NCBI RefSeq assembly: GCF_947387555.1 | Contig: NZ_CANDNZ010000018.1 | Location: 1 to 64,000, forward strand | Direction of reading: 5' to 3' | Source: Thalassomonas sp. RHCl1 | GTDB lineage: Bacteria; Pseudomonadota; Gammaproteobacteria; Enterobacterales; Alteromonadaceae | DNA length: 64,000 nt | Shown here: one piece after another, positions 9,233 to 64,000 of the stretch | Layout of the letters: every line of letters begins with the position of its first letter | Numbering within the stretch: position 1 is the first letter of the stretch | Position numbers and translations under genes: made by a program | The notes under the pieces: generated by a model | Told to the model about the DNA's origin: nothing | The model's input: the letters and a program-made list of their open reading frames with translations, nothing else | Databases searched by the model: none

Positions 9233-9255
9233 TAGCTGTCTCCTTAGGTTATAAC

Positions 9256-10554
9256 TTAGTGGTTATGCGGGTCGAAACCGCCTTTCGCCAGCTGTGATGC
9301 AATAAAAAACGCCCCTTTAGTGACAATACGACTGTTGGCCGCTACCCCTTTAATTTCACGCCACTGACCGGCCACATTATTAAAAGAACGCCCCAACACC
9401 ACCTCCTGCATCACAAACGATTTCGGCTCATCTTCAATAAACACCACCCAGTCGCCGTCACTGCTGCGCATCAGCGCGGTTTCAGGCACAGCCACCACCG
9501 GCTCCCGGCTTTTTAAAGAAAAATAGACATCGGCAAACATGCCGGAATGCAGCAGGTGGTTATCATTGGCGACTTCCAGGCGCACGATACGGGTACGGGT
9601 AACCAGATCTATGGTATGGGCTTCCTGGGTCACCCTGGCGGTAAAATAATTATCGCCGACTTTCACTTTCGCCAGGGTACCAACCGGCAAATCCAGCTGG
9701 GTATTGGGGGCCAGGCGGGCTTCTATCCACAAGGTATGTTCATCCGCGACCACCATCAGGGACTCTCCGGATTCTACCCTTTGCCCCTGCTGGAAATCAT
9801 CCGATAAAATCGCCCCGTCACTGATGGCAGACAAGGTATATTCCCCTAACGGCTGGGCGCTTTTTGCCAGCGAAGCGATAGCCGCTTTGGATAAACCATA
9901 GGCCTGCAAACGGCCAAGGGCAGCATCATAAGCCGACTGGCCGCTGATATAACGCTTATCACCCACGGATTTCTTGCCTAGTTGTTGGATGCGTTGCCAT
10001 TCCGAGCTGGCAACACGAAAGCTTGCCTGGGCTTCTGCCACGGTTTCACTGAACAGGGTCACCAAAGGCTGGCCTTTTTCGACATGAGCGCCAAGCCCGA
10101 CATGGCGGCGCAACACCACGGAATCCACCCGCGGAGAGACCAGATAACTGGTATAACCGTTGGCTTTAACTTCACCCGGGGCGTATAACTGGTAGTCCAT
10201 GATAGCGGCGTTGGCGGTTTCTACCTCAATACCGGCTAATTTTATTTGTTGACCGGAAAGGCTGACTTCGCTGCCTTCACTTTCTTCTCCATGGCCGTGG
10301 CCGTCTTCTTCCCCGTGTTCATCACCGCCGGATGTTTCATGATCATCATGCTCACCGTCGTGGCCTTCATCATGATCTGCATGCGCTTGATCATGACCAT
10401 TTTCTTCATGAGCCTCATGCCCGTCGTGGTTATCTTTTTCAGCCTGTTCGCTTTTACCGTGCTCGTGATCATGTTCCTGGGCTGCAACATTAGCCCCCGC
10501 CGTCAAAGTGAATAAGGTCAATAACGGGATCAGGGTAATTAGTTTTATCTTCAT
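9256..10554 (-). CDS. czcB: RND efflux periplasmic adaptor, His-rich N-terminus
   Basis: 432 residues. A signal peptide (about 1-25, LITLIPLLTLFTLTAGA) precedes a strongly His/Asp/Glu-rich tract at about residues 26-95, a likely metal-binding arm. Then come the lipoyl and beta-barrel halves of a membrane-fusion protein (APGEVKANGYTSYLVSPRVD; HVGLGAHVEKGQPLVTL) and the C-terminal domain (VVAVPETALMRSSDGDWVVF). It bridges the pump and the TolC-like channel. It sits between them in the operon, 24 bp after the channel gene. The acidic and His tract is longer than in many CzcB proteins. Confidence 0.95.
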   Translation of the reverse strand: MKIKLITLIPLLTLFTLTAGANVAAQEHDHEHGKSEQAEKDNHDGHEAHEENGHDQAHADHDEGHDGEHDDHETSGGDEHGEEDGHGHGEESEGSEVSLSGQQIKLAGIEVETANAAIMDYQLYAPGEVKANGYTSYLVSPRVDSVVLRRHVGLGAHVEKGQPLVTLFSETVAEAQASFRVASSEWQRIQQLGKKSVGDKRYISGQSAYDAALGRLQAYGLSKAAIASLAKSAQPLGEYTLSAISDGAILSDDFQQGQRVESGESLMVVADEHTLWIEARLAPNTQLDLPVGTLAKVKVGDNYFTARVTQEAHTIDLVTRTRIVRLEVANDNHLLHSGMFADVYFSLKSREPVVAVPETALMRSSDGDWVVFIEDEPKSFVMQEVVLGRSFNNVAGQWREIKGVAANSRIVTKGAFFIASQLAKGGFDPHNH

Positions 10555-10578
10555 GATTAATCTTCCAAAATTCTTTAC

Positions 10579-11892
10579 TTATTTATAGGGGATCAGTAGC
10601 GGGCTAACGGCAGGAAGCTGCTTGATAACAAGATCGATTTCTCCGGTTTGTAATAACCAGTCGATTTTCGCCCCCTGATAGGCCGTGCGTAATTCAATAC
10701 CCGCCTGCAAACCTTCACTGCGTTGCTGCAACGCCAGTAAATATTCCGAGGTACTGATATCACCACTTTGCCATTGCGCCGCCAATAAGCGGCTGGTGCG
10801 CTCGGCACGCCCCTGCATCACGTCTAACCAGCGTTGGTATTTCTTTTGATATTCAAGAAAAACCGCTTGTGATGCCTGTAAAGAAAATTGTTGTTTACGA
10901 ATAACACTGCGATATAAGGCTTCCACTGAAGCCGCCTCTTGATTGGCGGCGCGGGCCTCATCGCTGAAATCATTGTTGATATTAAGCGGCATGGAAAAAC
11001 TTAACGCCACCACATCATCACCGCCAGACTTACCGGCACTGAGACCAAAGGTAGGATCGGCCCTGGTTTCCAGCCGGGCGATAACAGCCTGCTGCTTTAA
11101 GGCCTGCCACCTGGCCTTGGCCGCGACTATGCCCGGGTGATTATCCAGGTTCACCGGATTGTTAACATCCCCCAAGGACCAGAGGCGCTCGGGAATTTGG
11201 CCGCTGGCAGCACTCCAGCCAGGCAATAACTGACCTAAATCGGCTTCCACCTGCTGCAACTGTGCCTGTGCCTGTGCCGTGGTATTCAGTTTTTGCGACA
11301 GGCTAAGGTAAGCAAGCTCGGCATCCACCTGGCTTAAATCACCGGATAACTGCCGCTGTTCCACCAGGTTGAGCAAGGTATTGAGCTGCTCTTCCTGGGA
11401 GCGGGCCAGCTCCGCCAGAGAATTCACCGACTGCCACTTAACCAGGCTATGCAGTACCTCGGCGGTTTTTTCCTGCAGCAACTGCTTATATTCCTGCCCG
11501 ACCGCCAGGCGGTCATAATCCCCCTGTTTCATGCGCACGCTGCGCTTATCCCACCAGTCTATGGTTTGATTGATACCCAAAGCAAAATTGTCATTGGCTC
11601 CTTCCTGTTCAAATTCCGTGGCCAGCTCAGGGTTGTATAACCTTTTGTCTTTGCCGTCGGCCATTGACAGCCGGGCGTTTACCGCTGCTTTGGCGGCAAT
11701 AATATCCGGGTGCTGTTCAATTTGTTGTTGTAACCATAATCCCCAGGAGACCCGGGACTGCCCGCCTTTTTCGGCTGAGCTGAATGTTTGTGCTGCACGG
11801 TTTTCCAATGCTGAAGCCGAAGCTGTGGCATAGACAGGAACCAAGGCCCCCGCCAGCAGCAAAGCTAACGTCGTCTTTTTGTGAAATTTCAT
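10579..11892 (-). CDS. czcC: TolC family outer-membrane efflux protein
   Basis: 437 residues. An exported helical outer-membrane channel of a metal RND system. The signal peptide is at about residues 1-25 (LALLLAGALVPVYATASA). Two repeats of long amphipathic helices follow (HPDIIAAKAAVNARLSMADG; HPGIVAAKARWQALKQQAVI), the duplicated HP-I-AA pattern of CzcC-type proteins. It precedes the adaptor gene by 24 bp. The 124-bp gap behind the small His-rich gene contains two TTCCGGAA palindromes, so this gene may have an additional promoter. Confidence 0.93.
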   Translation of the reverse strand: MKFHKKTTLALLLAGALVPVYATASASALENRAAQTFSSAEKGGQSRVSWGLWLQQQIEQHPDIIAAKAAVNARLSMADGKDKRLYNPELATEFEQEGANDNFALGINQTIDWWDKRSVRMKQGDYDRLAVGQEYKQLLQEKTAEVLHSLVKWQSVNSLAELARSQEEQLNTLLNLVEQRQLSGDLSQVDAELAYLSLSQKLNTTAQAQAQLQQVEADLGQLLPGWSAASGQIPERLWSLGDVNNPVNLDNHPGIVAAKARWQALKQQAVIARLETRADPTFGLSAGKSGGDDVVALSFSMPLNINNDFSDEARAANQEAASVEALYRSVIRKQQFSLQASQAVFLEYQKKYQRWLDVMQGRAERTSRLLAAQWQSGDISTSEYLLALQQRSEGLQAGIELRTAYQGAKIDWLLQTGEIDLVIKQLPAVSPLLIPYK

Positions 11893-11984
11893 CGAATTTC
11901 ATCCTCAAAAATCAAAATAATGCAGGTCGAATCCAGAGATTTAACCCGGTAACTGATTGTTGTTTATTCCTGAAAACAAGAATA

Positions 11985-12010
11985 TTCCGGAAAAGAAGAA
12001 AGTTCCGGAA
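11985..12010. promoter_or_regulatory. pair of TTCCGGAA palindromes before the efflux genes
   Basis: Two identical TTCCGGAA palindromes at 11985-11992 and 12003-12010 are 18 bp apart, start to start, between the small His-rich gene and the TolC-type gene. They could be operator half-sites of a metal-responsive regulator. No regulator gene of MerR, ArsR or two-component type lies in this operon. Confidence 0.3.
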
Positions 12011-12016
12011 AGAGGA

Positions 12017-12406
12017 TTAAGCTATCGGAGGGCGCTGATCTTGTGGCAGCAAGGCTGAAAGATAACTTGAAGTGGTTTCCGTCAGTTGTTGTGAAGTCAC
12101 CACAAGTTTAAGCTTATCCGATTGCAACGCTAGAAATACCTGAACCGGATGGTGGCAATGGCCATGATGACAATCCGGGTGCGCCGCTTCATTCTCTTGC
12201 TCATGATCCTGGTGCTGGCCAGAAAAGGAGAATGAGTCCTGGTGTGAAAGTCCATCAGCATGCTGATGTAAAGAAGAGTCAGGGGCTTGGCTTAATGCAA
12301 GATGTTCGCTTTGTTGTTGGTGCTCCTGATGACTATCGGCGATCGCAACCACAGACTGCAAGGCAATCAAGGTAGCAAACAGATAAGACATCCAAACTCG
12401 TAACAT
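12017..12406 (-). CDS. small periplasmic His-rich protein leading the efflux operon
   Basis: 129 residues from the chosen ATG at 12406, which has AGGAAA 8 nt upstream. A longer frame to 12541 lacks such support. The signal peptide is MSYLFATLIALQSVVAIA. The mature part is crowded with His, Gln and acidic residues, ending in a CHHGHCHH cluster near residues 83-91. It is on the same strand and upstream of the channel, adaptor and pump genes. Proteins of this kind often start czc-type operons and may bind or sense metal in the periplasm. No named domain is recognised; the function is inferred from context. Confidence 0.75.
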   Translation of the reverse strand: MLRVWMSYLFATLIALQSVVAIADSHQEHQQQSEHLALSQAPDSSLHQHADGLSHQDSFSFSGQHQDHEQENEAAHPDCHHGHCHHPVQVFLALQSDKLKLVVTSQQLTETTSSYLSALLPQDQRPPIA

Positions 12407-12603
12407 TAAAAACGTTTCCTGAATATTGATTAAGCCGGGTTTAAAACCCCACAACAATGAACAAACTAAGTTCATTAATGGTGGATAATACGTCAATTTT
12501 ATCAAAAAAGCGATACAGGCAAACCAATCAAGCCCACACAAACCTGCTTTAAATCAAAGCAAATCATAAAAATAGCACAACCGGCTGCACGATATAAGCT
12601 CAC

Positions 12604-13674
12604 TCAAACGGTATAAAGCTGTAAATCAAACTGATAATCATCGAGAACATCGGCAAGCTTTCTCGGCTGAAGAACCCGTTGATAAGCAAACTCTTTGTCC
12701 TTAGCGACTAAACATTTGCAGAAAGCATCCAGCAGCGGCAATTCCGGGCACCATTGCTCAAGAAACAAAAACTGTCCCGATTCATTCACTTCCAAAAATA
12801 CCCACTCGTTATCCCGGGTGACGATAAAATCAAAAGCGCCGCACACCAGATCCAGTTCATCCATCAAGGCGCAGGCCGCCCGGTATATTTCATCCGGTAA
12901 CTCCACCGGGTCCGACAAAGTGCCCTGATGCTGATGCAGCCGCCAGTCGAGCTCCCCGTACTGCAAACGGTTGGAGTCTATGCTGACGGCAAAATAACTA
13001 CGGCCAAAAAACTGCGCCCGCACCTCATATTGCTTGTCCACCAGTCGCTGGTATATCCCGGGAGAGGCACTGAGCAAGGTATCATTAGGCAAATGCTCAG
13101 CCGTAACACGGGCGCTATAGGTGGCATAATTTCTCCCCTGTTCATGCCAGGCCAGGGCATTCAGGGGTTTATAGAGGGTGTCTTGCCCGGAATTGATAAA
13201 TGCCTTAATACCCTGAGGATCATTGCTGATCAGGGTTTGCGGGATAGACAGCCCCACTTTTTTGGCAAGGGTAAGCTGTAGCGGTTTAACATTGGCCCGG
13301 GTAGCCGCCGCCTGCGGATTCAGCCAGAAAGCATGCTCAAGCAAGGCCAGGCACGCCAGGTTGCTGCTGCACAACTCCTGTTGCACAAACATTTTATCTT
13401 CGGGCACGATATAACCCGGCACCAAGGGGGTTTGCAGCCGGCGATGCCAGACCACTTCAATATCAGACAAGTCGGTGAGCTGTTCAGCACACTGATATTC
13501 CAGCTGGGGAGGTTGCCCGTTAAGGCTAAAATTAACGGCTGAATTTATCGCCAGCTTTTCACTCTGGTATAAGGTAACCCGGCAAGCCATTTCGGTTAAA
13601 ACCTTAGTCACCACATCCGAGTGCAGGTCATTGCTTTTGCCATTAATCAGTACATTTTTTATTTTATTGTACAT
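12604..13674 (-). CDS. MvdC/MvdD-like ATP-grasp ligase, orphan
   Basis: 356 residues. The arrangement (an N-terminal Rossmann-like part containing VVWHRR, then NPQAAATRANVKPLQLTLAK, then the ATP-grasp core with YKPLNALAWHEQG and the metal-binding EVNESGQFLFLE near residue 300) matches graspetide (omega-ester or amide peptide) ligases related to MvdC/MvdD. Such enzymes close macrocycles on ribosomal peptides. No precursor peptide gene is evident on either side: the 219-bp upstream spacer has only reading frames shorter than 15 codons. It is monocistronic. It could also be a general ATP-grasp amino acid or peptide ligase. Confidence 0.75.
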   Translation of the reverse strand: MYNKIKNVLINGKSNDLHSDVVTKVLTEMACRVTLYQSEKLAINSAVNFSLNGQPPQLEYQCAEQLTDLSDIEVVWHRRLQTPLVPGYIVPEDKMFVQQELCSSNLACLALLEHAFWLNPQAAATRANVKPLQLTLAKKVGLSIPQTLISNDPQGIKAFINSGQDTLYKPLNALAWHEQGRNYATYSARVTAEHLPNDTLLSASPGIYQRLVDKQYEVRAQFFGRSYFAVSIDSNRLQYGELDWRLHQHQGTLSDPVELPDEIYRAACALMDELDLVCGAFDFIVTRDNEWVFLEVNESGQFLFLEQWCPELPLLDAFCKCLVAKDKEFAYQRVLQPRKLADVLDDYQFDLQLYTV

Positions 13675-13893
13675 AGCTTTAACTTTCCTTGTTAAAAACC
13701 GCCTTCATGCAAGCGGCCATCTCCGCCCGACCTTATGCGCTCTACCCTATTAGTTCTACCATAACCAAGGTGATAAGCAACCGGGAATTAGCCGGATCGG
13801 AGAAAAAGCAGATTAAGGGCAAAATGGCGTAGAAAATCCAGCCAGAAGCAAATGACCAGCCAGAGCAATGCCCGATTAAGAACGATGAGGGAA

Positions 13894-14211
13894 TTATTGA
13901 CTGCAATAAAACCGGTACAGCACGGCGATCACCTCCACCACTTCCTCACTGTCTAAAGCATAAAAAATGGTTTGTGCCTGACGCCGGGTTTTAACATAAC
14001 CCTGATTGCGCAGCCAGGCCAGGTGTTGCGACAGCGAAGACTGGGGGATGGGAAACAGCGCATTCAGCTCAGATACCGATAACTCCCCGTCCTGCAAGGC
14101 ACACAAAATCATCAGCCGGTGCTGGTTGCCCATGGCTTTTAACAGGGCAACCGCCTGCCCGGCGCTGGCTTCCAGCTGACTATAATCCCGCACACTTACC
14201 TCCGATGCCAT
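13894..14211 (-). CDS. ArsR/SmtB family transcriptional repressor
   Basis: 105 residues. The winged-helix domain spans about residues 18-90 (LKAMGNQHRLMILCALQDGE; LSVSELNALFPIPQSSLSQHLAWLRNQGYV). Neighbouring YeeE and rhodanese genes suggest the BigR/SqrR branch, which senses persulfide by a Cys pair. The only obvious cysteines here are in LMILCAL and at the C-terminal end (FYCSQ). It probably controls the sulfur locus through the operator at 15197-15219. A short palindrome CGCTTAAGCG at 14230-14239, just upstream of its start, could serve autoregulation. Confidence 0.9.
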   Translation of the reverse strand: MASEVSVRDYSQLEASAGQAVALLKAMGNQHRLMILCALQDGELSVSELNALFPIPQSSLSQHLAWLRNQGYVKTRRQAQTIFYALDSEEVVEVIAVLYRFYCSQ

Positions 14212-14278
14212 TGTTGCAAGCCCCGGATCCGCTTAAGCGCTTGAGGTATTATGCTGGCCTCTCAACCGGGTATAAAAC

Positions 14279-14704
14279 TCAAGGTTTCCAGCGGGAAATC
14301 AATCCGGAACACCACATTCCCGCCAGCATAAATGCAATAAAGGCAAAAATTTTAACATCACCGCCGGATAAATTCACCATCGCAGGGCCGGGACAGATCC
14401 CGGCCAGTCCCCAACCCGCACCAAAAACAACCGCCCCCAATAGCAAAGGTTTATCGATCTGCTGCTTTTGAGGCAAAGAAAACCCCTCCGCCACAAGCGG
14501 TTTTTCCCGCCGCTTGACCAGCAAGAAATAGCCGGGAATATAGACAAACAAGGCGCTGGCCATCACCAACAATAAACTGGGATCCCAATGGCCGCTGATA
14601 TCCAGAAAGCTCAGCACCTTATCCGGGTTGGCCATTTGCGAAACCAGTAACCCCAACCCAAAAAGCACACCACAAAACAAGGCAATCAATAATTGCATAT
14701 TCAC
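14279..14704 (-). CDS. YeeE/YedE family (DUF6691) membrane protein
   Basis: 141 residues, about four membrane helices. It carries the GICPGPAMVNL motif near residues 103-113, typical of the second half of a split YeeE/YedE transporter (thiosulfate or other sulfur compound uptake). It lies 6 bp after the companion gene, so the two are co-translated and probably form one pore. The N-terminal helix begins at the start codon without a signal peptide. The locus with an ArsR regulator and a rhodanese supports a role in sulfide or sulfane sulfur handling. Confidence 0.88.
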   Translation of the reverse strand: MNMQLLIALFCGVLFGLGLLVSQMANPDKVLSFLDISGHWDPSLLLVMASALFVYIPGYFLLVKRREKPLVAEGFSLPQKQQIDKPLLLGAVVFGAGWGLAGICPGPAMVNLSGGDVKIFAFIAFMLAGMWCSGLISRWKP

Positions 14705-56176: not shown

Positions 56177-56941
56177 TTATTGCTCAACCGCACGGGAGTA
56201 GAACTGCTTCATTAATTGCCGGTATTCTTCGGTGGCGACAATCTTAGTCAGCGCCTGCTGAAATTGTCTTACCAACGCCGGATCAACTTGTTTACTAAAG
56301 GCAAAGCAGGTAAAGGCTGTCGGGAATACAAACACAGTTTCATAATCATCTAAGTCCCCTCCCCATTGAATAATCATATTGTTGGCCGCCTGCTGGTCGT
56401 AGGCGATCATTTGAATACGACCTTTGGCCATCAATTCCAGGTTGGGTTTCATGGTGACATTGCTGACGATATTAATGGTAGAAGAGAGTTGTTCCATCAG
56501 CAGCTGTTCGGCAATATCAAAGCGCACTGTGCCTATGGCATACTGGGCTAGTTCGTCAAAGCTGCTAACTTTAATACGGCTGGACTTCAGGGCGATCAGC
56601 GCATTGGTGTCTGTGGTTTCTATCGGGCAGGCCCATTGGAATTTATCTTTGCGCTGCTTGGTTTTGGCAATGGCAAACAACACCACATTATCCTGCTGCT
56701 CCAGGTTGCGGTAGGCCCGTGCCCAGGGTAACACCCGGATTTTTTGTGGTTTTACGTTAAGTTCCTGCCAGATTTTCTCCAGCAGCACCACAGACAAACC
56801 AGTGAGCTTGCCATGTTCGGTATAGTTCAGCGGCGGATATTCTTCGGTCAGATAATCCAGCCGTTCAAAGTGCGAAGCGGAGCAAGGTGTTGCCAGCACC
56901 GCTGAAATTAGAAATAAAAATCCGCTAACTATTTGCCTCAT
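56177..56941 (-). CDS. periplasmic solute-binding protein (SBP_bac_3 type)
   Basis: 254 residues from the ATG at 56941; the frame is open to 56956. The signal peptide is IVSGFLFLISAVLATPCSA. The mature protein starts LDYLTEEYPPLNYTEHGKLT, the usual opening of type 3 binding proteins, with RVLPWARAYRNLEQQ and a final FYSRAVEQ. No permease or ATPase gene is adjacent, so it may serve a distant transporter or act as a free ligand sensor. It is divergent from the DUF350 gene. Confidence 0.88.
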   Translation of the reverse strand: MRQIVSGFLFLISAVLATPCSASHFERLDYLTEEYPPLNYTEHGKLTGLSVVLLEKIWQELNVKPQKIRVLPWARAYRNLEQQDNVVLFAIAKTKQRKDKFQWACPIETTDTNALIALKSSRIKVSSFDELAQYAIGTVRFDIAEQLLMEQLSSTINIVSNVTMKPNLELMAKGRIQMIAYDQQAANNMIIQWGGDLDDYETVFVFPTAFTCFAFSKQVDPALVRQFQQALTKIVATEEYRQLMKQFYSRAVEQ

Positions 56942-57124
56942 TTGGATAATTTCCATTTTAAATCCAGTGGCCAGTATAATAAATCCAAGGGTAAAAGTCT
57001 GCTCTTGCTTTTGGGGCCGATATCCGGCGCTTTACCGGGTGTTGATGATAGCGCCAGCTTGCTCTGGAGCTTCATTTATCCTTGTGCTAGACTCCTGCCC
57101 CCTTTAAAAATCAGAACAATAAAC

Positions 57125-57964
57125 ATGGGTATTTCAATCTTAACCTACTTGTCTAATTTAGCCTTTATCGGTGTATTTTTGATTGTAATATTTGCTTCCA
57201 GGTGGCTTTACAGCTTGTCCACCCCCTACAACACCTTCAGCGAAATCATAGATAAAAAAAATCTGGCCCTGGGCGTTTCCATTATGGGCTTTATCACCGC
57301 GAATACTATCATTTACAGTTCGGTGATCACCGGTCTTGGCCAGGAAGTGCAGGCAGATTTGATTACGGTTTGCCAATATACGGCTTTGGGCATGCTGCTG
57401 TTGCTGGTATCGCGCCAGGTTAATGACAAGATTTTATTGCATTCGTGTTGCAACCACAGGCAAATCATCACCAAACAAAGCCTGTCCGTCGGCATGGCCC
57501 AGGCAAGCTGTTATATCACCTCCGGCCTGATTATCGGCGGCGTGCTGATGAGGGATGGCGATATATTCTCCGCCCTGGTCTTTTACGCCCTGGGCCAGGT
57601 CTCCCTGGTGCTGTTTACGAAAATTTATGACTTGTTTACCAACTTTTGCCTGATACAGGAGCTGGAAAGCGGCAATATCGCTGCCGGCACCAGCTTCTCT
57701 GCCACGGTGATCGCACTGGGTATCATTCTGTTGCATGCCCTGGGCGGGGAATTTGTTTCCTGGCAGTCGAGTATTGCCTCATTTGCCCTTGATGCGCTGA
57801 TCGCCTTTATCATTTTGCCTGTGGTCAGGGTGCTGGTAGATAAGCTGCTTATTCCCTCGGTCAATATCGACTACGCCATTAAAAAAGAGCACAACGTCGC
57901 CGTTGCCTTGCTTGAAGGCGCTGTGGCGATCAGTGTAGCCCTGGTGATCTTTTTTGCCTTGTAG
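57125..57964 (+). CDS. DUF350 family membrane protein
   Basis: 279 residues from the ATG at 57125. The frame opens at 56933, but the extra N-terminus crosses the divergent promoter region and lacks family sequence. About eight helices in two repeats (LTYLSNLAFIGVFLIVIFA; IAAGTSFSATVIALGIILLH), as in other duplicated DUF350/UPF0719 proteins. Hydrophobic core residues with EIIDKKNLALGVSIMGFITA are family-typical. Function is not established; some neighbours elsewhere point to membrane or spermidine/glutathionylspermidine-linked stress roles. Confidence 0.85.
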   Translation: MGISILTYLSNLAFIGVFLIVIFASRWLYSLSTPYNTFSEIIDKKNLALGVSIMGFITANTIIYSSVITGLGQEVQADLITVCQYTALGMLLLLVSRQVNDKILLHSCCNHRQIITKQSLSVGMAQASCYITSGLIIGGVLMRDGDIFSALVFYALGQVSLVLFTKIYDLFTNFCLIQELESGNIAAGTSFSATVIALGIILLHALGGEFVSWQSSIASFALDALIAFIILPVVRVLVDKLLIPSVNIDYAIKKEHNVAVALLEGAVAISVALVIFFAL

Positions 57965-58000: not shown

Positions 58001-58034
58001 TACGTCAAAAGTGACGTACGTTACTTTTGACGTA
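58001..58034. repeat. 34-bp near-perfect palindrome
   Basis: The two halves (58001-58017 and 58018-58034) are inverted copies with one mismatched pair (58013 with 58022). Each half contains ACGTCAAAAGT or its complement. A further partial copy (GTCACTTTCG) follows. There is no T-run, so it is a DNA site or an RNA hairpin without termination signal. It lies between the DUF350 gene and the sigma factor gene. Confidence 0.75.
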
Positions 58035-58175
58035 TGTCACTTTCGAATGGCTGGCTTTATAGCAAATAAAACCGATAACTTTTCTCCTCCCGGCAGCTAT
58101 TCTTCCTCGGTCCGGTAAAGCTTCGTCTATAATGTAGCTACTATTTCACAGGTATATGCTCGCAATAAGGTTTAT

Positions 58176-58895
58176 ATGGCGAGAAAAGAAAACGAAACCG
58201 TTGAATTTTCTGCTGAAACTATCCTGAAAAGAATCAAAGAAGGCGACCGCTCAGCAGAAAGGGCCCTGGTCAGGCACTATTGGCGCGGCTTACACTTTAT
58301 TTTACTAAGCAAGTGCCAGGATCCCGAACTCACCAATGATTTACTCCAAGACAGCTTCGTTGTCATTATCAATAAAGCCCGGGAAAACCTCATCGAAAAT
58401 CCGGCAGCCCTTGCCCGCTATATCCGCCAGGTAGGCGTTCATTTACTGATTGCCCATTTCCGCAAAGAAAAACGCCGCGCCACCACGGCCAGTGAAGACA
58501 TTCAAATTTACAGCGACGATCAAATTCCCGGTTTATTCAGAGAACTCAGCTCTCAACAAATATTTAACAAGGTACAGCAGCTTGTCGATGAAATGACAGT
58601 ACCAAGAGATAAGCAGCTATTAAGGGATTATTTTGTCTACGGCAAAAGCAAACAGGAAATCTGTGCAGCCATGGATTTATCTGCCGAGCATTTTGACAAG
58701 GTATTGTATCGCGCCAGAAACCGGTTGAAACAGCTGGTACAAATAAAGCTGGGTTCAGACAACTCTCTGCCCGATCTGCTGGAAGTGCTAATTTTTATCG
58801 GCATCACTTTGGCCCAGGTGAATACAGCTCCCTTACCTGCGGACAACACCAAGATAGCAATTTATTTAATGTTAGTGAGAGAAGTTCAAACCTAG
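58176..58895 (+). CDS. ECF-like sigma-70 family sigma factor
   Basis: 239 residues. Region 2 has ERALVRHYWRGLHFILLSKC and PELTNDLLQDSFVVIINKA; region 4 has DYFVYGKSKQEICAAMDLSA and EHFDKVLYRARNRLKQLV. A C-terminal extension of about 45 residues after region 4 is hydrophobic in part (LPDLLEVLIFIGITLAQVNT). It starts a five-gene plus-strand unit. The following gene encodes a likely anti-sigma factor, so the unit may be switched on by an envelope or redox signal. A TATAAT at 58128-58133 may be its own -10 box, without a good -35. Confidence 0.9.
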   Translation: MARKENETVEFSAETILKRIKEGDRSAERALVRHYWRGLHFILLSKCQDPELTNDLLQDSFVVIINKARENLIENPAALARYIRQVGVHLLIAHFRKEKRRATTASEDIQIYSDDQIPGLFRELSSQQIFNKVQQLVDEMTVPRDKQLLRDYFVYGKSKQEICAAMDLSAEHFDKVLYRARNRLKQLVQIKLGSDNSLPDLLEVLIFIGITLAQVNTAPLPADNTKIAIYLMLVREVQT

Positions 58896-58981
58896 CGACA
58901 CTTAGTAAATCAGCACAATAAACCGGTTTAAGCTTAATCACTGAGGTGCTCGGGTCTACCGTTAATAAGAAGTGAAGCATT

Positions 58982-59650
58982 ATGGACTCAAAATATATTA
59001 AAGACAAAAATGTCATTGCCAGGTACTTACGCGGTGGACTCACCCCGGAAGAAAGCATCGAATTTGAAGAATACCTGATAGATAAACCCGAGTTAATTGA
59101 ACAACTTGAGATAGATAACCAGCTTATGAAAGCTTTACCCGAAGTAGATTACAGTAAGAATGAAAGCAAAACTTCCCTGCTTGATTTCTTAATGACGCCG
59201 CTGCGGGCCAGTTTTGCCACCGGAGTTAGCTGTTTATTGGGAGTTTATTTGTTTACCTTATACCAAGGCGGCATACCGGCCTCCCCCGAGGGCCTGGTGG
59301 CCAAACAGTCCCAGGTAGTTTTTCTTGACACTTTTCGCGGCAGCGCCAATGAACAACACGTTTCCCGCACCATACCTTTGTCAGCGGGCACAAACAGCAT
59401 CAGTATCGGCATCCCAGCAGAGCCGGACTATCCGACGGTAAAATACAAAATACAAGTCAGCCACAAGCAGATCCCTCAGGGGCAGTTCAGTACCGAATGC
59501 CGCCTGGCGGATCAATCCGGATATTTCTTTATCACCCTCGAAGGTCAGCCGCTGCAACCGGGCTTGTATCTGATAGAAGCAATCCCCTGTCATGACAAGC
59601 TGGCGCCGAAACGCTTAAACATCACCTTAACCCACCAAGAGTCCAAATAA
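58982..59650 (+). CDS. membrane-anchored anti-sigma-like protein
   Basis: 222 residues. The N-terminal part (VIARYLRGGLTPEESIEFEE, YLIDKPELIEQLEIDNQLM) has the fold signature of anti-sigma N-termini but none of the zinc-binding His/Cys. One membrane helix lies near 76-95 (FATGVSCLLGVYLFTLY). The C-terminal about 120 residues would be outside the cytoplasm and contain two Cys. It lies 86 bp behind the sigma gene and 17 bp before the peroxidase gene. Regulated release of the sigma factor is inferred from order and topology. Confidence 0.75.
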   Translation: MDSKYIKDKNVIARYLRGGLTPEESIEFEEYLIDKPELIEQLEIDNQLMKALPEVDYSKNESKTSLLDFLMTPLRASFATGVSCLLGVYLFTLYQGGIPASPEGLVAKQSQVVFLDTFRGSANEQHVSRTIPLSAGTNSISIGIPAEPDYPTVKYKIQVSHKQIPQGQFSTECRLADQSGYFFITLEGQPLQPGLYLIEAIPCHDKLAPKRLNITLTHQESK

Positions 59651-59667
59651 GCACAGGAGGACAACAC

Positions 59668-61149
59668 ATGAATCAAATGTCACAGATTAAAGGCAGCTTC
59701 TTCTCATTGTTTAACCTGCCGCCGACCCGGTTTAAGGAAGAGGCGTTAACCAAACTGGGTGAGGTGATCACACAAGTCAGGATAGACGGTCCCAGCCCGG
59801 TTGATGCCGGTTATGTTTATTTGGGCCAGTTTATCACCCACGATGCCACCCGAATGAAGCGGGGCGACAGCGATCATTTTGAACCGGGTGAAGTCCCTAT
59901 CAATGAATTGCAGCAATTGAGAACACCGTCGCTGGAATTGGATAGTGTTTACGGCGAAGGCTTTGACGATCCTGACGTTGCCGTCGATAAGCAAACCGGC
60001 AAAATGCGCCTTGGGCCCACCTATGATGCCGACGGCAGACTAAGGGCAGAAAACGACCTGCCCAGAGGAGAGGGTTTGCTCGCCCAAACCAAGGATAACC
60101 GTAATGATGAAAACCTGATCATTGCCCAGCTGCATGTACAATTTTTAAAGCTGCACAATTTCTTCGTTGATAAAATAGTGGCCAAAAGAAAGCAAAGACC
60201 GGATGCCAAAGCACTATACGAACAAGCCCGGAAACTTTGCATCCTGCATTACCAGCAGGTGGTGTTATATGATTTTTTATATGAAATGATCGACGAAAAG
60301 GTCTGGAAATACATTGTCAGAGATAAAAAAAGGAACCTGTGGAACACCACTTACGCCGAAGAAGCCCGTATGCCGCTGGAATTCTCAGCCGCAGCTTTCC
60401 GGTTCGGCCATTCCATGGTCAGGGGCGACTATACCGTTAACGAGACTATCGGCAATGTCGACCTGAAAACCTTATTTATTATGACCGGCAAAGGCGGCAT
60501 GAACGGTCATGCGGGCCTGCCGGCTGATTATGTTATCGACTGGAAGCTCTACTTTAGCCAGCTTCCCAGGGAAGACCCTAAACCTGTGGGTTTTAACCTT
60601 GCCGAAAAGATTAACCTCTCCCTTTCTTTTATTCCGCCTTTTCGAAAGGGAAGGATGAAAATTCCCCTGCTGAACTTATTGCGCGGCAATGAGTTGTCTT
60701 TGCCCGATACCCAGACGCTAATGGCTTTTATAAAAAAAGAGCATCCCAAGCTGACTAAAGCCCTCAAATTGAAATTACTCACTAAAAGTGAATTAAACCC
60801 CAAAGTAGAGATAGTCATTGACGGAAAAACCAAAAAGAAAAGAATTTTGGATCATGTCGGCAAGAAATATGGTTTTGATAAAAAAACTCCCCTCTGGTAT
60901 TACATTCTGGCGGAGGCGCAAAGCCAAACCAAAAAGCGCAGAAGCGGGCATAAGCTGGGCACACTGGGCAGCTTGATTGTTGCCGAAGTCATCTATTCGC
61001 TGATCTTACTAAGCCAGCCGTCAATTTTTGATAAACCTGCCAGGAAGACAGACTATATCCCCACAAAAACAGGCAACAATGCAGGAGAAACACACTTTAA
61101 ATTTATTGATTTACTGTCAGCCATCGACCCTGAACTGGCAAAACCCTGA
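59668..61149 (+). CDS. animal-type haem peroxidase family protein
   Basis: 493 residues without a signal peptide. The distal site is YLGQFITHDATRMK (His near 58, Asp next to it). The core has NLIIAQLHVQFLKLHNFFVD, and the proximal His is in FRFGHSMVRGDYTVN near residue 250. The order matches the peroxidase/cyclooxygenase superfamily (peroxidasin and prostaglandin synthase relatives). The C-terminal part is basic and rich in Lys (KKKRILDHVGKKYGFDKKTP). It would oxidise halides or organic substrates with peroxide. It is in an operon with regulators and a CHAT protein, so stress or defence use is possible. Confidence 0.88.
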   Translation: MNQMSQIKGSFFSLFNLPPTRFKEEALTKLGEVITQVRIDGPSPVDAGYVYLGQFITHDATRMKRGDSDHFEPGEVPINELQQLRTPSLELDSVYGEGFDDPDVAVDKQTGKMRLGPTYDADGRLRAENDLPRGEGLLAQTKDNRNDENLIIAQLHVQFLKLHNFFVDKIVAKRKQRPDAKALYEQARKLCILHYQQVVLYDFLYEMIDEKVWKYIVRDKKRNLWNTTYAEEARMPLEFSAAAFRFGHSMVRGDYTVNETIGNVDLKTLFIMTGKGGMNGHAGLPADYVIDWKLYFSQLPREDPKPVGFNLAEKINLSLSFIPPFRKGRMKIPLLNLLRGNELSLPDTQTLMAFIKKEHPKLTKALKLKLLTKSELNPKVEIVIDGKTKKKRILDHVGKKYGFDKKTPLWYYILAEAQSQTKKRRSGHKLGTLGSLIVAEVIYSLILLSQPSIFDKPARKTDYIPTKTGNNAGETHFKFIDLLSAIDPELAKP

Positions 61150-61204
61150 CACCGACAGCAGTTACCGATACCGAACTTTACTTATGTAATAGAGGAATAA
61201 ACTG

Positions 61205-61666
61205 ATGAATCAAGCAAAACAAGTCACCAGCAAACGGGAAATCAAAGGCTCTCCCCTACCGGATTTCCCTCCGCCTGTTGCCACCCAGAAAAAGGTGATC
61301 AAGCGCTTTACCGATACGGTATGGATCACCAATGGCGAAAACACCAAAACAGAAGATCGCAGCAAAGACAGGTACTATCCCAGCAAAGGCGGAAGGTTGA
61401 AATTTTCTCTGGTCGAAAAAAATGGTGATATCTATGCCACAGTCAAGGTGTTAGAGGGTGAACCTTTCGAATCCCGGACCGCCATGGAAAGCGCCTTCTT
61501 CAGAGTGCTGGGGAATGAGCTGATCTCAAGTCCCATGATCATTCAAATCGGCGTACCCGGCCTGGCGCTGAGCGAAAGGTTAACCCTGAGCGAAGACGGC
61601 AAAAAAATGACCCATCATTTAACCTTCTCCGACGGTGTTCACGGTTCCTGGGTTTGCGAAAAATAG
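61205..61666 (+). CDS. hypothetical protein between peroxidase and CHAT genes
   Basis: 153 residues, hydrophilic, without signal peptide or membrane helix. The first 40 residues are basic and Pro-rich (KREIKGSPLPDFPPPVA). The rest looks like a beta-rich domain (RLKFSLVEKNGDIYATVKV, MIIQIGVPGLALSERLTL). AGAGGAA precedes the ATG. It is conserved only by position so far as can be judged. It could be a substrate or partner of the CHAT protein, or an inhibitor of the peroxidase; none of this is shown. Confidence 0.65.
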   Translation: MNQAKQVTSKREIKGSPLPDFPPPVATQKKVIKRFTDTVWITNGENTKTEDRSKDRYYPSKGGRLKFSLVEKNGDIYATVKVLEGEPFESRTAMESAFFRVLGNELISSPMIIQIGVPGLALSERLTLSEDGKKMTHHLTFSDGVHGSWVCEK

Positions 61667-61697
61667 CAATAAAGGAAAAAGTTGCTGACGATTGATT

Positions 61698-64000
61698 ATG
61701 ACTGGCTGTTATCCCGGCATGCTTTATTGGTTATTAGGGGTAGTTATAACCTATCCTGGAGCAGGTTTTGCCTGCTCCAGCAATAGCCAGGGGCAAGAGC
61801 CACTCGGTGAATATCAAAGCCAGGTGCCGGCAAATGCTCCTTTACTGCTGCTCATAAAACAAGATGATCTTGATATTCACATTATCCGCAAGCTCGATAA
61901 CCGGGAAATCCGCAGCAACACGCCTTCCGGACGCAATGGTTATGAATTTATTTATATTAAGCCAGGTGAAAAAAAGGCCGGCATCAAGCTTTGTTTCTTT
62001 AGCCGATACCAGGATGCTGCAACAGGCAACTATCACATCAGCCAGGTCAAAAACGCAAGCAGCGACCTTATCCATGCCATAGAGCTGATGGATAAAGCAG
62101 CCCGCGCCTGGTCGGAAGACACTGAACTCTCCAGATTACTGGCATCCGCCTACTTTGATCAGGTGGCCAAGCTCGACATCACAGCGTTTGATTTATCCAA
62201 CCATGCGCGCCTTTATAGCCTCAATGCCAAAATCGTCAATTACCAATACGACAGTGCCCTGGCCTTAGCACAGGCACTATTGACCAAAGTGCCGACAAAA
62301 AGCTTCCTGGGCTACTCCGCCCTCTGGGGCAAAGGCAAGGTCCTGATCAGACAGAATAAACAAACAGCAGCCATAACCCCCCTCAGCGATGCCGTCACCA
62401 TAGCAGAATCGCTGCTGGTTCCGGGACAATCCGCCTCAGCAAAAGATATCGCCGACCTGAAAAACTGGCTCGCCGAAGCTTACTTGATGGACGGACAAAT
62501 CAAGAACGGCGAAACCCTGCTTAACGAAGCCCGAATATTGGCAGGCAATGATGCACAACTGTTAGGCGCCATTTATAACAATTTAGGTTACGTTTACCTG
62601 CTGGCAAGCAAACTCACCACCGGACGAGTAAGGGCACAATACATTAACACCTCCATTAATGAACATGAACTGGCCCGTAATTATGCAAAAAATGCCGGTG
62701 ACTGGTTGGAGTTAATTTATATTGAAAACAATATGGGCACCCTATACCAACGCATCGGCAGTTTACGAAAAGCCCGGGAGCATTACTGGCAAGCTTTGGA
62801 TTTAATCGCCCGCAAAGGCACTCCCTTCAGGCTGCAGGTCATATACACCAATCTGGGCAAAATTTATCAACACTTAGGCGACTACCAGAAGTCTGAAAGT
62901 TTTTTAAAGAAGGCGTTAGAGATTGCGGGACAAGGCCAGTCATCACGGTTTCGTTTATCACAATTGCAATGCAGTTTAGGCAATAGCCAGCGGCTAATGG
63001 GCAGGCCACAAACGGCTTTAATCCATCATAATCTCTGTATCCGTAGTGCCATTGAGGAAAACAACCGGGAACTGTTGCTAACAGCACAATATGAACTTGC
63101 TGAAGACTATATCCATTTAGGCAGAATCCAGGATGCCAGGGAAACCACAGAGTCGATCATAGCTGAGTTAGTACCGGATATTGGCCAGGACAGCGGCTTA
63201 TACTCTCTGGTACTCAACCAATATGCCAAACTTAATTATCGGGAAGGTAAACTCGATAAGGCACTGGCGAATGTTCAAACGGCATTAAAATATTCTCTGT
63301 CTTCACGAAATCCAAGCCTGCATATAAAAATACTCAATGAAGCCATGCAGATATACAAAGCCCTTGGTAATTCTCCAAAAGCGTTAACATACGGACAAAA
63401 AGCCCTGAAAGAGGTAGAGCAGCTTCACCAGCACCTGGAGGCAGAGCGTCTGGGCCCTGCCTGGAGTAAAATCACCCATGACATATTTCTGAATGTCGCC
63501 GAAATCTTTCTGAATCAATACCTGAAAAGCGGCGATACCATACAGTTATATCAAGCGCTTGATGTGTTAGAGAGATCCCGTGCAATAACCTTAAGGCGAG
63601 AGTTTGCTATTTCTGATGAGCAAGAACACAAAAATAAGGCGACAGATCATTTAATCACACTAAGTGAACTTGCCGACAGCCATGCCACTAACAGCACAAA
63701 TAAAACCTATACCCCTTTGCCCCTTAGCTTTTATCATGAACATGAATTATTAAACTTTGCGCGGTTAAACGGTAAAAAGAATGCTCCTATTCCGCCGGTA
63801 CTTGAACATAAACAGATACAGGAAAAGCTGGGAAAGCAACAAACGGTACTTTATTATCTCACCTTAAAAAATGCCGTATATGCGCTTGTCATTACCAAAT
63901 CTAATATTGCCTTACACCACCTCGGCGCCCCTGAGGATTTAAATAAATTAATTCAGCAAGCAAGAAGCCAGGTATCAGATCTCAACTCATCCCCCTATCA
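61698..64000 (+). CDS. exported TPR-CHAT protein, cut by the window end
   Basis: At least 767 residues; the frame is open to the window end. The start is tentative: ATG at 61698 has AAAGGA about 20 nt upstream, and a TTG lies two codons earlier. A hydrophobic start (MLYWLLGVVITYPGAGFACS) looks like a signal or lipoprotein peptide with Cys near 29. Helical TPR-type repeats cover about 130-590 (LGKIYQHLGDYQKSESFLKK, GSLRKAREHYWQALDLI). The last 60 residues begin a CHAT domain (QTVLYYLTLKNAVYALVITK). The His and Cys residues lie past the window. CHAT proteins are caspase-like peptidases. Confidence 0.8.
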   Translation, partial: MTGCYPGMLYWLLGVVITYPGAGFACSSNSQGQEPLGEYQSQVPANAPLLLLIKQDDLDIHIIRKLDNREIRSNTPSGRNGYEFIYIKPGEKKAGIKLCFFSRYQDAATGNYHISQVKNASSDLIHAIELMDKAARAWSEDTELSRLLASAYFDQVAKLDITAFDLSNHARLYSLNAKIVNYQYDSALALAQALLTKVPTKSFLGYSALWGKGKVLIRQNKQTAAITPLSDAVTIAESLLVPGQSASAKDIADLKNWLAEAYLMDGQIKNGETLLNEARILAGNDAQLLGAIYNNLGYVYLLASKLTTGRVRAQYINTSINEHELARNYAKNAGDWLELIYIENNMGTLYQRIGSLRKAREHYWQALDLIARKGTPFRLQVIYTNLGKIYQHLGDYQKSESFLKKALEIAGQGQSSRFRLSQLQCSLGNSQRLMGRPQTALIHHNLCIRSAIEENNRELLLTAQYELAEDYIHLGRIQDARETTESIIAELVPDIGQDSGLYSLVLNQYAKLNYREGKLDKALANVQTALKYSLSSRNPSLHIKILNEAMQIYKALGNSPKALTYGQKALKEVEQLHQHLEAERLGPAWSKITHDIFLNVAEIFLNQYLKSGDTIQLYQALDVLERSRAITLRREFAISDEQEHKNKATDHLITLSELADSHATNSTNKTYTPLPLSFYHEHELLNFARLNGKKNAPIPPVLEHKQIQEKLGKQQTVLYYLTLKNAVYALVITKSNIALHHLGAPEDLNKLIQQARSQVSDLNSSPY

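Follow-up and report, generated by a model that had tools for sequence, protein, structure and literature searches.

What does a bacterium do with a sigma factor, a membrane anti-sigma factor, a haem peroxidase, a small protein and a TPR-CHAT protease kept side by side? These five genes lie at the end of the window, by which we mean the whole stretch of 64,000 nucleotides from Thalassomonas sp. RHCl1 that was analysed. The unit runs from 58176 to 64940 on the + strand, and a preliminary description had already taken it for a same-strand set with short gaps, which it is: all five ORFs are on that strand and the gaps between them are, in order, 86, 17, 55 and 25 bp (Table 1). We think that it may be a self-contained envelope-signalling device, in which the CHAT protein would cut the anti-sigma factor at Arg119 and free the sigma factor, with the peroxidase and the small protein as the output. 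This is a tentative reading, and we give it somewhat less than an even chance.

Table 1. Features of the five-gene unit, with positions in the window.
Feature	Position	Strand	Basis
ECF sigma factor, 239 aa	58176..58895	+	TIGR02937 above cut-off; similarity to peroxidase-locus sigma factors
Hydrophobic C-terminal tail of sigma factor, aa 197-213	58764..58814	+	hydropathy, alignment
Membrane anti-sigma factor, 222 aa	58982..59650	+	helical N-terminal part without zinc site, one TM helix and beta domain in the periplasm (predicted)
Transmembrane helix of anti-sigma factor, aa 77-93	59210..59260	+	hydropathy
Arg119 codon of anti-sigma factor, proposed CHAT cleavage point	59336..59338	+	conservation in homologues
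Animal-type haem peroxidase, 493 aa, without signal peptide	59668..61149	+	PF03098
Small protein, 153 aa, fast-evolving, without family match	61205..61666	+	place between peroxidase and CHAT
TPR-CHAT protease (putative), predicted exported, 5' part	61692..64000	+	gene end at C18:64940, 1082 aa in full

The grouping of the five genes is beyond chance. A peroxidase of this type is found in 9 of the 295 genomes of the order, and all nine have the five genes in identical order. The preliminary description had placed the five genes in one unit, and the survey of gene order bears this out: they are co-conserved, and a sigma factor of their own is among them. The unit is also kept in distant relatives: there are 15 distinct loci with the peroxidase, small protein and CHAT genes together, and the sigma/anti-sigma pair adjoins them in 14 (L049 is the exception). 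In L052 and L053 the pair is downstream of the other three genes. These two loci have a 6773-bp block in common at 96.8% identity, with no other blastn match between the two stretches and no clear terminal repeats at the cassette boundaries. Since both loci are on MAG contigs, they may have been mis-binned.

Sigma factor, anti-sigma factor and CHAT form a wider unit than the peroxidase set. Sigma matches at E <= 1e-20 number 15 in the 295 genomes, and a CHAT gene adjoins 14 of them. Five of these 14 sigma-CHAT units have no peroxidase; three are arranged as CHAT-sigma-anti-sigma (type B; L004, L045 and L047) and two as sigma-anti-sigma-CHAT (type C; L044 and L046). Two further type B units (L203 and L204) come from the wider class. 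There are also sigma relatives without a CHAT gene, namely G016 (5.9e-21), seven weaker matches, and G341 (1.5e-22 with a profile). In Povalibacter, the peroxidase, small protein and CHAT genes lie together, and a sigma/anti-sigma pair that belongs to the family is on another contig, without a CHAT neighbour.

The first gene had been described as encoding an ECF-like sigma factor, and NCBIfam TIGR02937 (sigma70-ECF) bears this out at 51.3 bits against a cut-off of 42.9, with the Pfam region 2 and region 4 models each below their own cut-offs. In alignment, the protein is 31-48% identical to 11 other peroxidase-locus sigma factors. By hydropathy, 9 of 13 sigma factors from peroxidase loci have a hydrophobic tail, which is missing from the three type B and two type C ones; a VRE-like motif follows the tail at the extreme C-terminus. 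We found no promoter motif shared by 12 upstream regions (the best spaced dyads, in 3 of the 12, were equalled in 18 of 20 shuffles), so autoregulation of the sigma factor is something that we infer. A simple promoter/terminator scan did no better than shuffles.

Zinc anti-sigma (ZAS) factors carry the motif H-x3-C-x2-C. The window anti-sigma factor fails this motif and is without a zinc site, because neither Cys nor His (0 of each) precedes its membrane helix, and the sequence thus agrees with the earlier claim of a membrane anchor that lacks the zinc site. No Pfam or NCBIfam model matches it above cut-off; the best library match is the NCBIfam putative anti-sigmaE model, at E 0.027 and far under cut-off. 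In the structure model and in hydropathy, a single hydrophobic helix separates a helical N-terminal part from a beta-rich C-terminal part. These predictions agree with the layout of a transmembrane anti-sigma factor, with sigma-binding helices in the cytoplasm and a domain in the periplasm. All 18 homologues have a membrane segment at this place, between aa 71 and 112 (in L043 with a second, weaker one). We did not use a fold identity for the C-terminal domain, a beta-sandwich with mostly Ig-like matches, the best at E 1.1e-4 and TM 0.31.

Arg119 is the only periplasmic residue that is invariant among these 18 anti-sigma factors, and the residue after it is G, S or N in all of them. In a larger set, 21 of 22 have this periplasmic Arg, and the one that does not (L225, from Povalibacter) has no CHAT or family sigma gene within its 14 kb. 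In most of them the Arg belongs to a [E/D]xxR[G/S]-like site that lies just past the membrane, with an acidic P4 residue in 13 of 18. This nearly invariant Arg is a new observation here. It is about 26 residues past the membrane helix, in a loop predicted between strands 111-115 and 124-131 (mean pLDDT 64), and it could have a structural rather than a cleavage role. By analogy, the acidic P4 and the Arg resemble the [D/E]xxR sites of separases (PMC4626109), which are described as the nearest eukaryotic kin of CHAT (PMC9729208).

The CHAT gene encodes 1082 aa from the TTG at 61692 and runs beyond the end of the window; its start is uncertain and may be that TTG, the ATG at 61698 or later. The preliminary description saw only the part up to 64 kb and allowed for a domain that had lost its dyad. 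This did not turn out to be the case: the CHAT domain (PF12770, 1.4e-56, 192.5 bits against a Pfam cut-off of 24) has an intact His/Cys dyad outside the window, H932/C981, which is invariant in 14 of 14 proteins. C981 aligns with C627 of Csx29 (residue number from PMC9729208). On the strength of domain and dyad we take the protein to be a putative protease. It had also been called exported, and here the claim is one of prediction. All 18 CHAT proteins examined (L044 was left out) have a signal-like N-terminal segment; that of the window protein is barely at the hydropathy threshold of 1.4 with no basic residue ahead of it, and most orthologues are higher. Given this segment and the constant place of the membrane segment in the anti-sigma factor, we expect CHAT to be in the periplasm together with the C-terminal domain of the anti-sigma factor.

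We picture the device as follows. Through its cytoplasmic helices, the anti-sigma factor would tether the ECF sigma factor to the inner membrane. The N-terminal/TPR part of the exported CHAT protein would sense a cue outside the membrane and switch on the caspase/separase-like CHAT domain. This domain would cut the anti-sigma factor on its periplasmic side, after Arg119. An intramembrane protease of the RseP type would then clear away the stump, and the genome does encode an M50 (RseP-type) peptidase. The freed sigma factor would then raise its own operon, peroxidase and small protein included, and these two may be a dedicated output (or feedback) arm, in which the peroxidase would oxidise some substrate. 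The trees of anti-sigma factor and CHAT co-vary (r 0.43, permutation p 0.001, 13 loci), and Csx29, a TPR-CHAT protein, cleaves Csx30, a sigma-binding inhibitor (PMC10028731). The proposed cut site is a single arginine, which makes it testable.

Several observations count against this model. The Asp that contacts the P1 Arg is D2070 in human separase (PMC12609080); the S1 Asp that reads it in Chaetomium is D2151, with K670 as the Csx29 counterpart (PMC9729208). Through the alignment with Csx29, this position is Ala1022 in the window CHAT. Twelve of 14 type A CHATs have Ala there, L036 has Glu and L037 Ser, and the residue therefore lends no support to Arg specificity. Nor is Csx29 itself reported to cut after Arg. 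We had considered D1018, an invariant Asp in a W-x-V-x-D motif, as the S1 Asp and dropped it because the alignment and the numbering in PMC9729208 give the Ala instead. An Asp next to the S1 position is kept in type A and B CHATs and absent in type C, although type C anti-sigma factors retain the Arg. The trees of sigma factor and CHAT show no co-variation (r 0.06), and the CHAT-less sigma relatives and the Povalibacter sigma/anti-sigma pair apart from CHAT weigh on the same side. The model alone does not explain the close tie between peroxidase and CHAT. The predicted compartments of these two proteins also differ.

The peroxidase (PF03098, 3.3e-19) has no N-terminal hydrophobic segment, in line with the animal-type enzyme without signal peptide that was first described. 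An export signal is absent from 13 of 13 peroxidases examined, and we predict from sequence that the enzyme is cytoplasmic. Core residues Q54, H58, R145 and H248 are in all 15 locus peroxidases and N336 is in 14 (D in L183). The locus peroxidases form one clade (0.967), together with two CHAT-free outliers. In MPO-type peroxidases FRFGH stands ahead of the proximal His, and cyclooxygenases have a Tyr at the corresponding place. We rejected a cyclooxygenase/dioxygenase reading, as FRFGH precedes the proximal His here and there is no Tyr at the cyclooxygenase place. One could take the unit for an ordinary oxidative or envelope stress operon. In such an operon the peroxidase would clear peroxide, CHAT would be a scaffold, either inactive or with a housekeeping task, and shared regulation would be the sole reason for the linkage; Shewanella has a periplasmic glutathione peroxidase that depends on an ECF sigma factor (PMC4336711). 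We consider this reading very unlikely in view of the conserved CHAT dyad and the coupling of CHAT to one peroxidase clade. In addition, relatives of the peroxidase are rare in the order and PF03098 is in 0 of 14 control genomes, so this is not a usual peroxide scavenger.

The small protein was thought to be of no known family, and it has no Pfam or NCBIfam match at E 0.1. An ORF of 121-203 aa is at its place in 15 loci and is mostly recognised by that place and not by similarity. These proteins fall into two subgroups whose profiles show no match to each other (hhalign probability 0.1%), and what unites them is their place, their size and a few residues. The model is beta-rich with a pLDDT of 68. 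Among the 50 Foldseek matches listed, most are FABP/retinol-binder-like and the best is a kinase sensor domain at E 0.0015; because none reaches E 0.001 and the model has this pLDDT, we do not claim a lipid-carrier role.

The strongest pair in the unit is peroxidase and CHAT, whose trees co-vary at r = 0.897 (13 loci). Actinomycetes have a version of this pairing as well: in four loci a sigma/CHAT/peroxidase set is arranged differently, and a different CHAT is paired with a peroxidase of another clade. The pair suspected from the window is thus a real one. CHAT might then act on the peroxidase, the small protein or both as a processing enzyme, or be under their control, with the peroxidase as a peroxide sensor or protease-activated enzyme, the small protein as its carrier or inhibitor, and the sigma/anti-sigma pair as a bolted-on envelope-stress switch. 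The core of peroxidase, small protein and CHAT survives loss or rearrangement of that pair (L049, L052 and L053), which together with the tree co-variation favours such an arrangement, and CHAT substrates are commonly encoded beside the protease (PMC9729208). We think it unlikely all the same, since the predicted compartments differ and CHAT-sigma-anti-sigma units occur without a peroxidase. As for the small protein, unmatched subgroup profiles are unlike a shared substrate site.

The same co-variation, the survival of the pair without an adjoining sigma factor in L049 and the actinomycete pairing would also fit CHAT and peroxidase as joint effectors, a caspase-like protease and an oxidant-making enzyme that the sigma factor would switch on and that would harm the own cell, an invader, a phage or a predator, with the sigma factor released by another protease or by conformational change. 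Gasdermin cleavage in defence has been attributed to TPR-CHAT proteases (PMC9729208), and the CHAT protein has partial-length matches to two PADLOC models, BovA (3.5e-9, 2e-4) and a TPR model. However, the other four proteins have no match among the PADLOC protein models, and units of sigma, anti-sigma and CHAT occur without a peroxidase. A simple picture of co-acting effectors has a compartment problem, because the peroxidase is predicted to be cytoplasmic and CHAT to be exported. It also leaves the nearly invariant Arg unexplained, and a CHAT protease that controls the sigma factor fits this Arg better. We regard joint effectors as possible, if doubtful, and likewise the stress or defence role that the preliminary description had suggested for the pair. 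Viral contigs have two remote CHAT matches, neither with sigma or peroxidase labels. Plasmids have a peroxidase relative in 36 records, all below 60% identity; of two regions inspected, a Microvirga plasmid has no CHAT beside the peroxidase and the other is the Nonomuraea locus.

Taking the signalling device one step further, a periplasmic CHAT could be the site-1 protease of the whole class of these ECF switches and read an [E/D]xxR-like site, with one branch locked to the peroxidase and small protein. It might serve oxidant-linked outside-in signalling or an immune relay, as a CRISPR-free cousin of Craspase, and the actinomycete set would have been assembled separately. We find this wider picture rather unlikely. 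If it holds, CHAT proteases, so far known chiefly for their part in CRISPR and gasdermin defence, would have a second role in envelope signalling and the control of transcription, and the sigma-release circuit of Craspase would look like a single instance of a more general mechanism. The close tie between CHAT and an animal-type haem peroxidase offers a handle on the purpose of these bacterial peroxidases.

PrsW and signal peptidase are site-1 proteases of anti-sigma factors, and a site-2 cut follows. For RseA/RsiW/RsiV-type anti-sigma factors, DegS and Prc are also among the site-1 proteases (PMC10028731, PMC8999054). Our predicted anti-sigma layout is like theirs, with a cytoplasmic sigma-binding part, a membrane helix and a periplasmic domain; the difference is CHAT in the site-1 role, which is not described in the available portions of these two papers. 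Bacterial peroxicins are the short family 5 of the peroxidase-cyclooxygenase superfamily, which is marked by distal GQ..H and R..E motifs and a proximal His-Asn pair (PMC4420034). The peroxidase here is also short and largely has the distal and proximal motifs of the superfamily, and it may differ at the residues that form the heme esters: the first distal Asp is kept in 4 of the 15 loci (Thr in the window) and the Glu of the second ester in 10 (Glu in the window).

The nearest precedents are ECF54-CHAT and Craspase (Csx29/Csx30/RpoE). ECF54 sigma factors likewise have a CHAT gene nearby, or a subtilase or carboxypeptidase, and proteolytic control has been proposed for them (PMC8999054). They are described there without an anti-sigma factor, and the word peroxidase is absent from that paper; in 14 of the 15 loci here an anti-sigma gene is next door. 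Craspase (type III-E CRISPR) has a TPR-CHAT protein with a His/Cys dyad beside an ECF-type sigma factor (RpoE/CASP-sigma) and a sigma-holding protein, as our unit does, and in both the switch is proposed to be proteolytic cleavage of the inhibitor. Our locus does not have the Cas7-11/gRAMP and CRISPR array of a Craspase locus: 19 kb of L003 hold one two-copy repeat and no array, and a PADLOC scan found no Cas match among 7 flanking proteins. Solved TPR-CHAT/Csx29 chains match our CHAT profile distantly (E 2.3e-5 to 0.0014). The unit further differs from Craspase in that its CHAT is predicted to be exported, its inhibitor is a membrane anti-sigma factor, and a haem peroxidase and a small protein have been added.

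The CHAT gene crosses the end of the window, and in the extended sequence of contig C18 (105,354 bp, of which the window is the first 64,000, in a genome of 7.56 Mb in 39 contigs) it is complete, with its dyad intact. The five genes are separated by 86, 17, 55 and 25 bp, which bears out the same-strand set with short gaps proposed in the preliminary description. The peroxidase gene is the only PF03098 gene of the genome. There is a second CHAT gene on contig C8, in the order CHAT, sigma factor, anti-sigma and a 162-aa ORF, without peroxidase. The repeats ahead of the sigma gene may be an operator or may close the preceding unit. The neighboring DUF6933 protein matches the PADLOC defence candidate PDC-S63 (5.7e-75).

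Features of the unit, its surroundings and two loci compared with it
Feature	Position	Strand	Remarks
Membrane protein	window 56933-57964		two DUF350 stretches; directly 5' of unit
Near-palindromic repeats	window 58001-58043		TACGTCAAAAGTGACGTACGTTACTTTTGACGTATGTCACTTT; 5' of sigma gene
ECF sigma factor	first ORF, 239 aa	+	TIGR02937, over cut-off
Sigma tail and VRE-x5-H-like motif	window 58764-58892		
Anti-sigma	second ORF, 222 aa	+	sole model match putative anti-sigmaE, E 0.027
Animal haem peroxidase	third ORF, 493 aa	+	PF03098
Small protein	fourth ORF, 153 aa	+	no family match at E 0.1
TPR-CHAT protease	fifth ORF, 1082 aa, to C18:64940	+	TPR plus CHAT domains
DUF6933 protein	L003:10377-11249 (C18:65376-66248)		435 bp past CHAT gene, outside window
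Block shared by L052 and L053	about 7724-14485		6773 bp, 96.8% identical; peroxidase, small ORF, CHAT, sigma, anti-sigma
Anti-sigma-like protein, Povalibacter	L225:6010-6933		

A search of 295 genomes of the order gave peroxidase matches in nine, the window genome among them, and we took 16-19 kb around each gene. The sigma factor, anti-sigma, peroxidase, small ORF and CHAT gene come in identical order in all nine loci (similarity identified the small ORF in the window and L036 only; elsewhere it was placed by position), so the genes first described as one unit are co-conserved in every peroxidase-bearing genome among the 295. Flanking genes, compared by eye, are mostly dissimilar; some are shared between L037 and L040, which belong to one genus, and downstream ones between L042 and L051. 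A scan of named genomes confirmed 416 peroxidase loci, and we analysed the best 80 of them. CHAT adjoins the peroxidase in six proteobacterial loci (L049-L053 and L126, L050 from Pleionea repeating a locus already counted) and three actinomycete loci (L081, L098, L115), and was not seen in the other 71 with family-built models, some of the stretches being short. The class and the phylum gave matches in 21 of 369 and 35 of 398 genomes. Twenty of these loci (9 and 11) were opened, yielding one further complete unit (L183) and no CHAT in the other 19, five of which are whole contigs under 10 kb; around the remaining matches we viewed at most about 1.5 kb on either side. CHAT was absent from the opened peroxidase locus of genome G844.

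In total there are 15 distinct peroxidase-small-CHAT loci, and the sigma and anti-sigma genes adjoin in 14 of them, upstream in 12 and after CHAT in two (L052, L053). The Povalibacter locus L049 has neither, and a pair of the family lies on a separate contig with no CHAT adjoining. Gaps between the genes were measured in 11 loci; 40 of the 44 do not exceed 60 bp, and 16 of these are overlaps. We conclude that the unit is real and co-conserved. L052 and L053 come from MAG contigs that carry the labels Rhodospirillales and Pseudomonadales, and their peroxidases and CHATs are 97% identical; blastn of the two stretches found no match besides the block in the table, which was possibly transferred as a unit or reflects mis-binning. 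As far as the matches listed from the open-licence full-text literature go, the unit is undescribed, as their titles and abstract starts mention no CHAT-peroxidase operon; one sentence in the excerpted text of PMC8999054 places CHAT in the gene context of ECF54.

The sigma/anti-sigma pair reaches beyond the peroxidase. CHAT is in the locus for 14 of 15 sigma matches of the order at E <= 1e-20 (G016 has none) and absent at seven weaker matches in stretches of 12-17 kb. In the class, 5 of 303 genomes match the sigma profile at 1e-20: the window genome, G436 (L183), L203 and L204, which are CHAT units without peroxidase, and G341 (L205), which has no CHAT. Peroxidase-free loci run CHAT-sigma-anti (type B: L004, L045, L047, L203, and also L204, with its CHAT on the opposite strand) or sigma-anti-CHAT (type C: L044, whose TPR-like part is an ORF of its own upstream, and L046). 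Since CHAT joins sigma and anti-sigma without peroxidase, and peroxidase and small protein without adjoining sigma, CHAT is the hub of the family.

Among the 122 peroxidases of our tree, the proteobacterial CHAT-linked sequences group in a single split with 17 members (support 0.967; L183 is tip L136), two of which, L175 and L178, are on long branches and come from loci that we checked and found to be without CHAT. The actinomycete CHAT-linked peroxidases form a separate clade (0.989). In L081, L098, L115 and L217 (Nonomuraea, in a record listed as a plasmid) the sigma gene is on one strand and CHAT then peroxidase on the other, within about 140 bp of each other in three loci and about 2.2 kb apart in L081. 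Pfam confirms sigma and CHAT in L081, L098 and L115, and the peroxidase in the latter two; the genes of L217 and the L081 peroxidase were assigned by family-built models, and the L217 CHAT is only a 607-aa open frame. By eye, the dyad is intact in the three actinomycete CHATs inspected, and those of L098 and L115 have no signal-like start. The two Acrocarpospora loci closely resemble each other, and those of Actinomadura parvosata and Nonomuraea may do so too, so we count about two independent sightings.

The preliminary description saw a caspase-like peptidase beside a peroxidase without signal peptide, and the sequence comparison agrees with both parts. The dyad His and Cys are invariant in 14 of 14 aligned CHATs (nine from peroxidase loci, three of type B and two of type C), and no signal-like start was found in 13 peroxidases or 14 small proteins examined. 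A signal-like hydrophobic start is present in 18 of 18 CHAT proteins examined, in the window CHAT only at threshold. Peroxidase residues Q54, H58, R145 and H248 are kept in 15 of 15 loci and N336 in 14, a core pattern that agrees with the superfamily signatures in the excerpted text of PMC4420034; of the ester-forming residues, the Asp is kept in 4 of 15 and the Glu in 10 of 15. A hydrophobic C-terminal tail, which may tether sigma to the membrane, is found in 9 of 13 peroxidase-locus sigma factors and in none of types B and C. In most peroxidase-locus sigma factors a VRE-x5-H-like motif follows the tail; in the alignment, type B lacks both.

We tentatively favor CHAT as an exported site-1 protease that would cut the anti-sigma; the window genome also encodes an M50 (RseP-type) peptidase, over cut-off. 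Over 13 loci (permutation p), tree distances correlate between anti-sigma and CHAT (r 0.43, p 0.001), sigma and anti-sigma (r 0.39, p 0.026) and anti-sigma and peroxidase (r 0.26, p 0.027), and not significantly between sigma and CHAT (r 0.06) or sigma and peroxidase (r 0.04), the sigma distances being noisy because the protein is short. The strongest correlation is between peroxidase and CHAT (r 0.897, p 0.0005). These two might instead be joint effectors, which we think somewhat less probable, or CHAT might act on the peroxidase or the small protein, which seems unlikely; that the unit is an ordinary stress operon is more doubtful still. The compartment split of this most strongly co-varying pair is a puzzle that none of the four readings explains.

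For CHAT as a site-1 protease, the unit offers one sharp testable residue of putative function, R119 of the anti-sigma. A TM segment lies at one common place in 18 of 18 anti-sigmas (L043 adds a second, weaker one), and the predicted model has N-terminal helices, a TM helix and eight strands outside the membrane, a shape that is indicative only because the pLDDT is 64. R119 is the sole invariant extramembrane residue in the alignment of the 18; G, S or N follows it in all, and P4 is acidic in 13 of 18, and in 11 of 13 from peroxidase loci (hand count). With four sequences added, R is present in 21 of 22. The exception, L225, has Q and neither CHAT nor family sigma in its 14-kb stretch, and is a possible natural negative control; L224 keeps R although no CHAT adjoins.

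Conservation and position make the R119 site a strong candidate for the cut; known specificity does not. In the portions cited here, [D/E]xxR is the separase cleavage site (PMC4626109), and separase and bacterial TPR-CHAT proteins have like folds (PMC9729208). However, separase has an Asp for the P1 Arg where the window CHAT has Ala, and type C CHATs lack the neighboring conserved Asp while their anti-sigmas still keep the Arg. In Craspase, from the excerpted accounts in PMC10028731 and PMC9729208, Csx29 cuts Csx30 after L407, not Arg (PMC9729208), and Csx30 of another species is cut between 427 and 429, where deletion of M427 abolishes the cut (PMC10028731).
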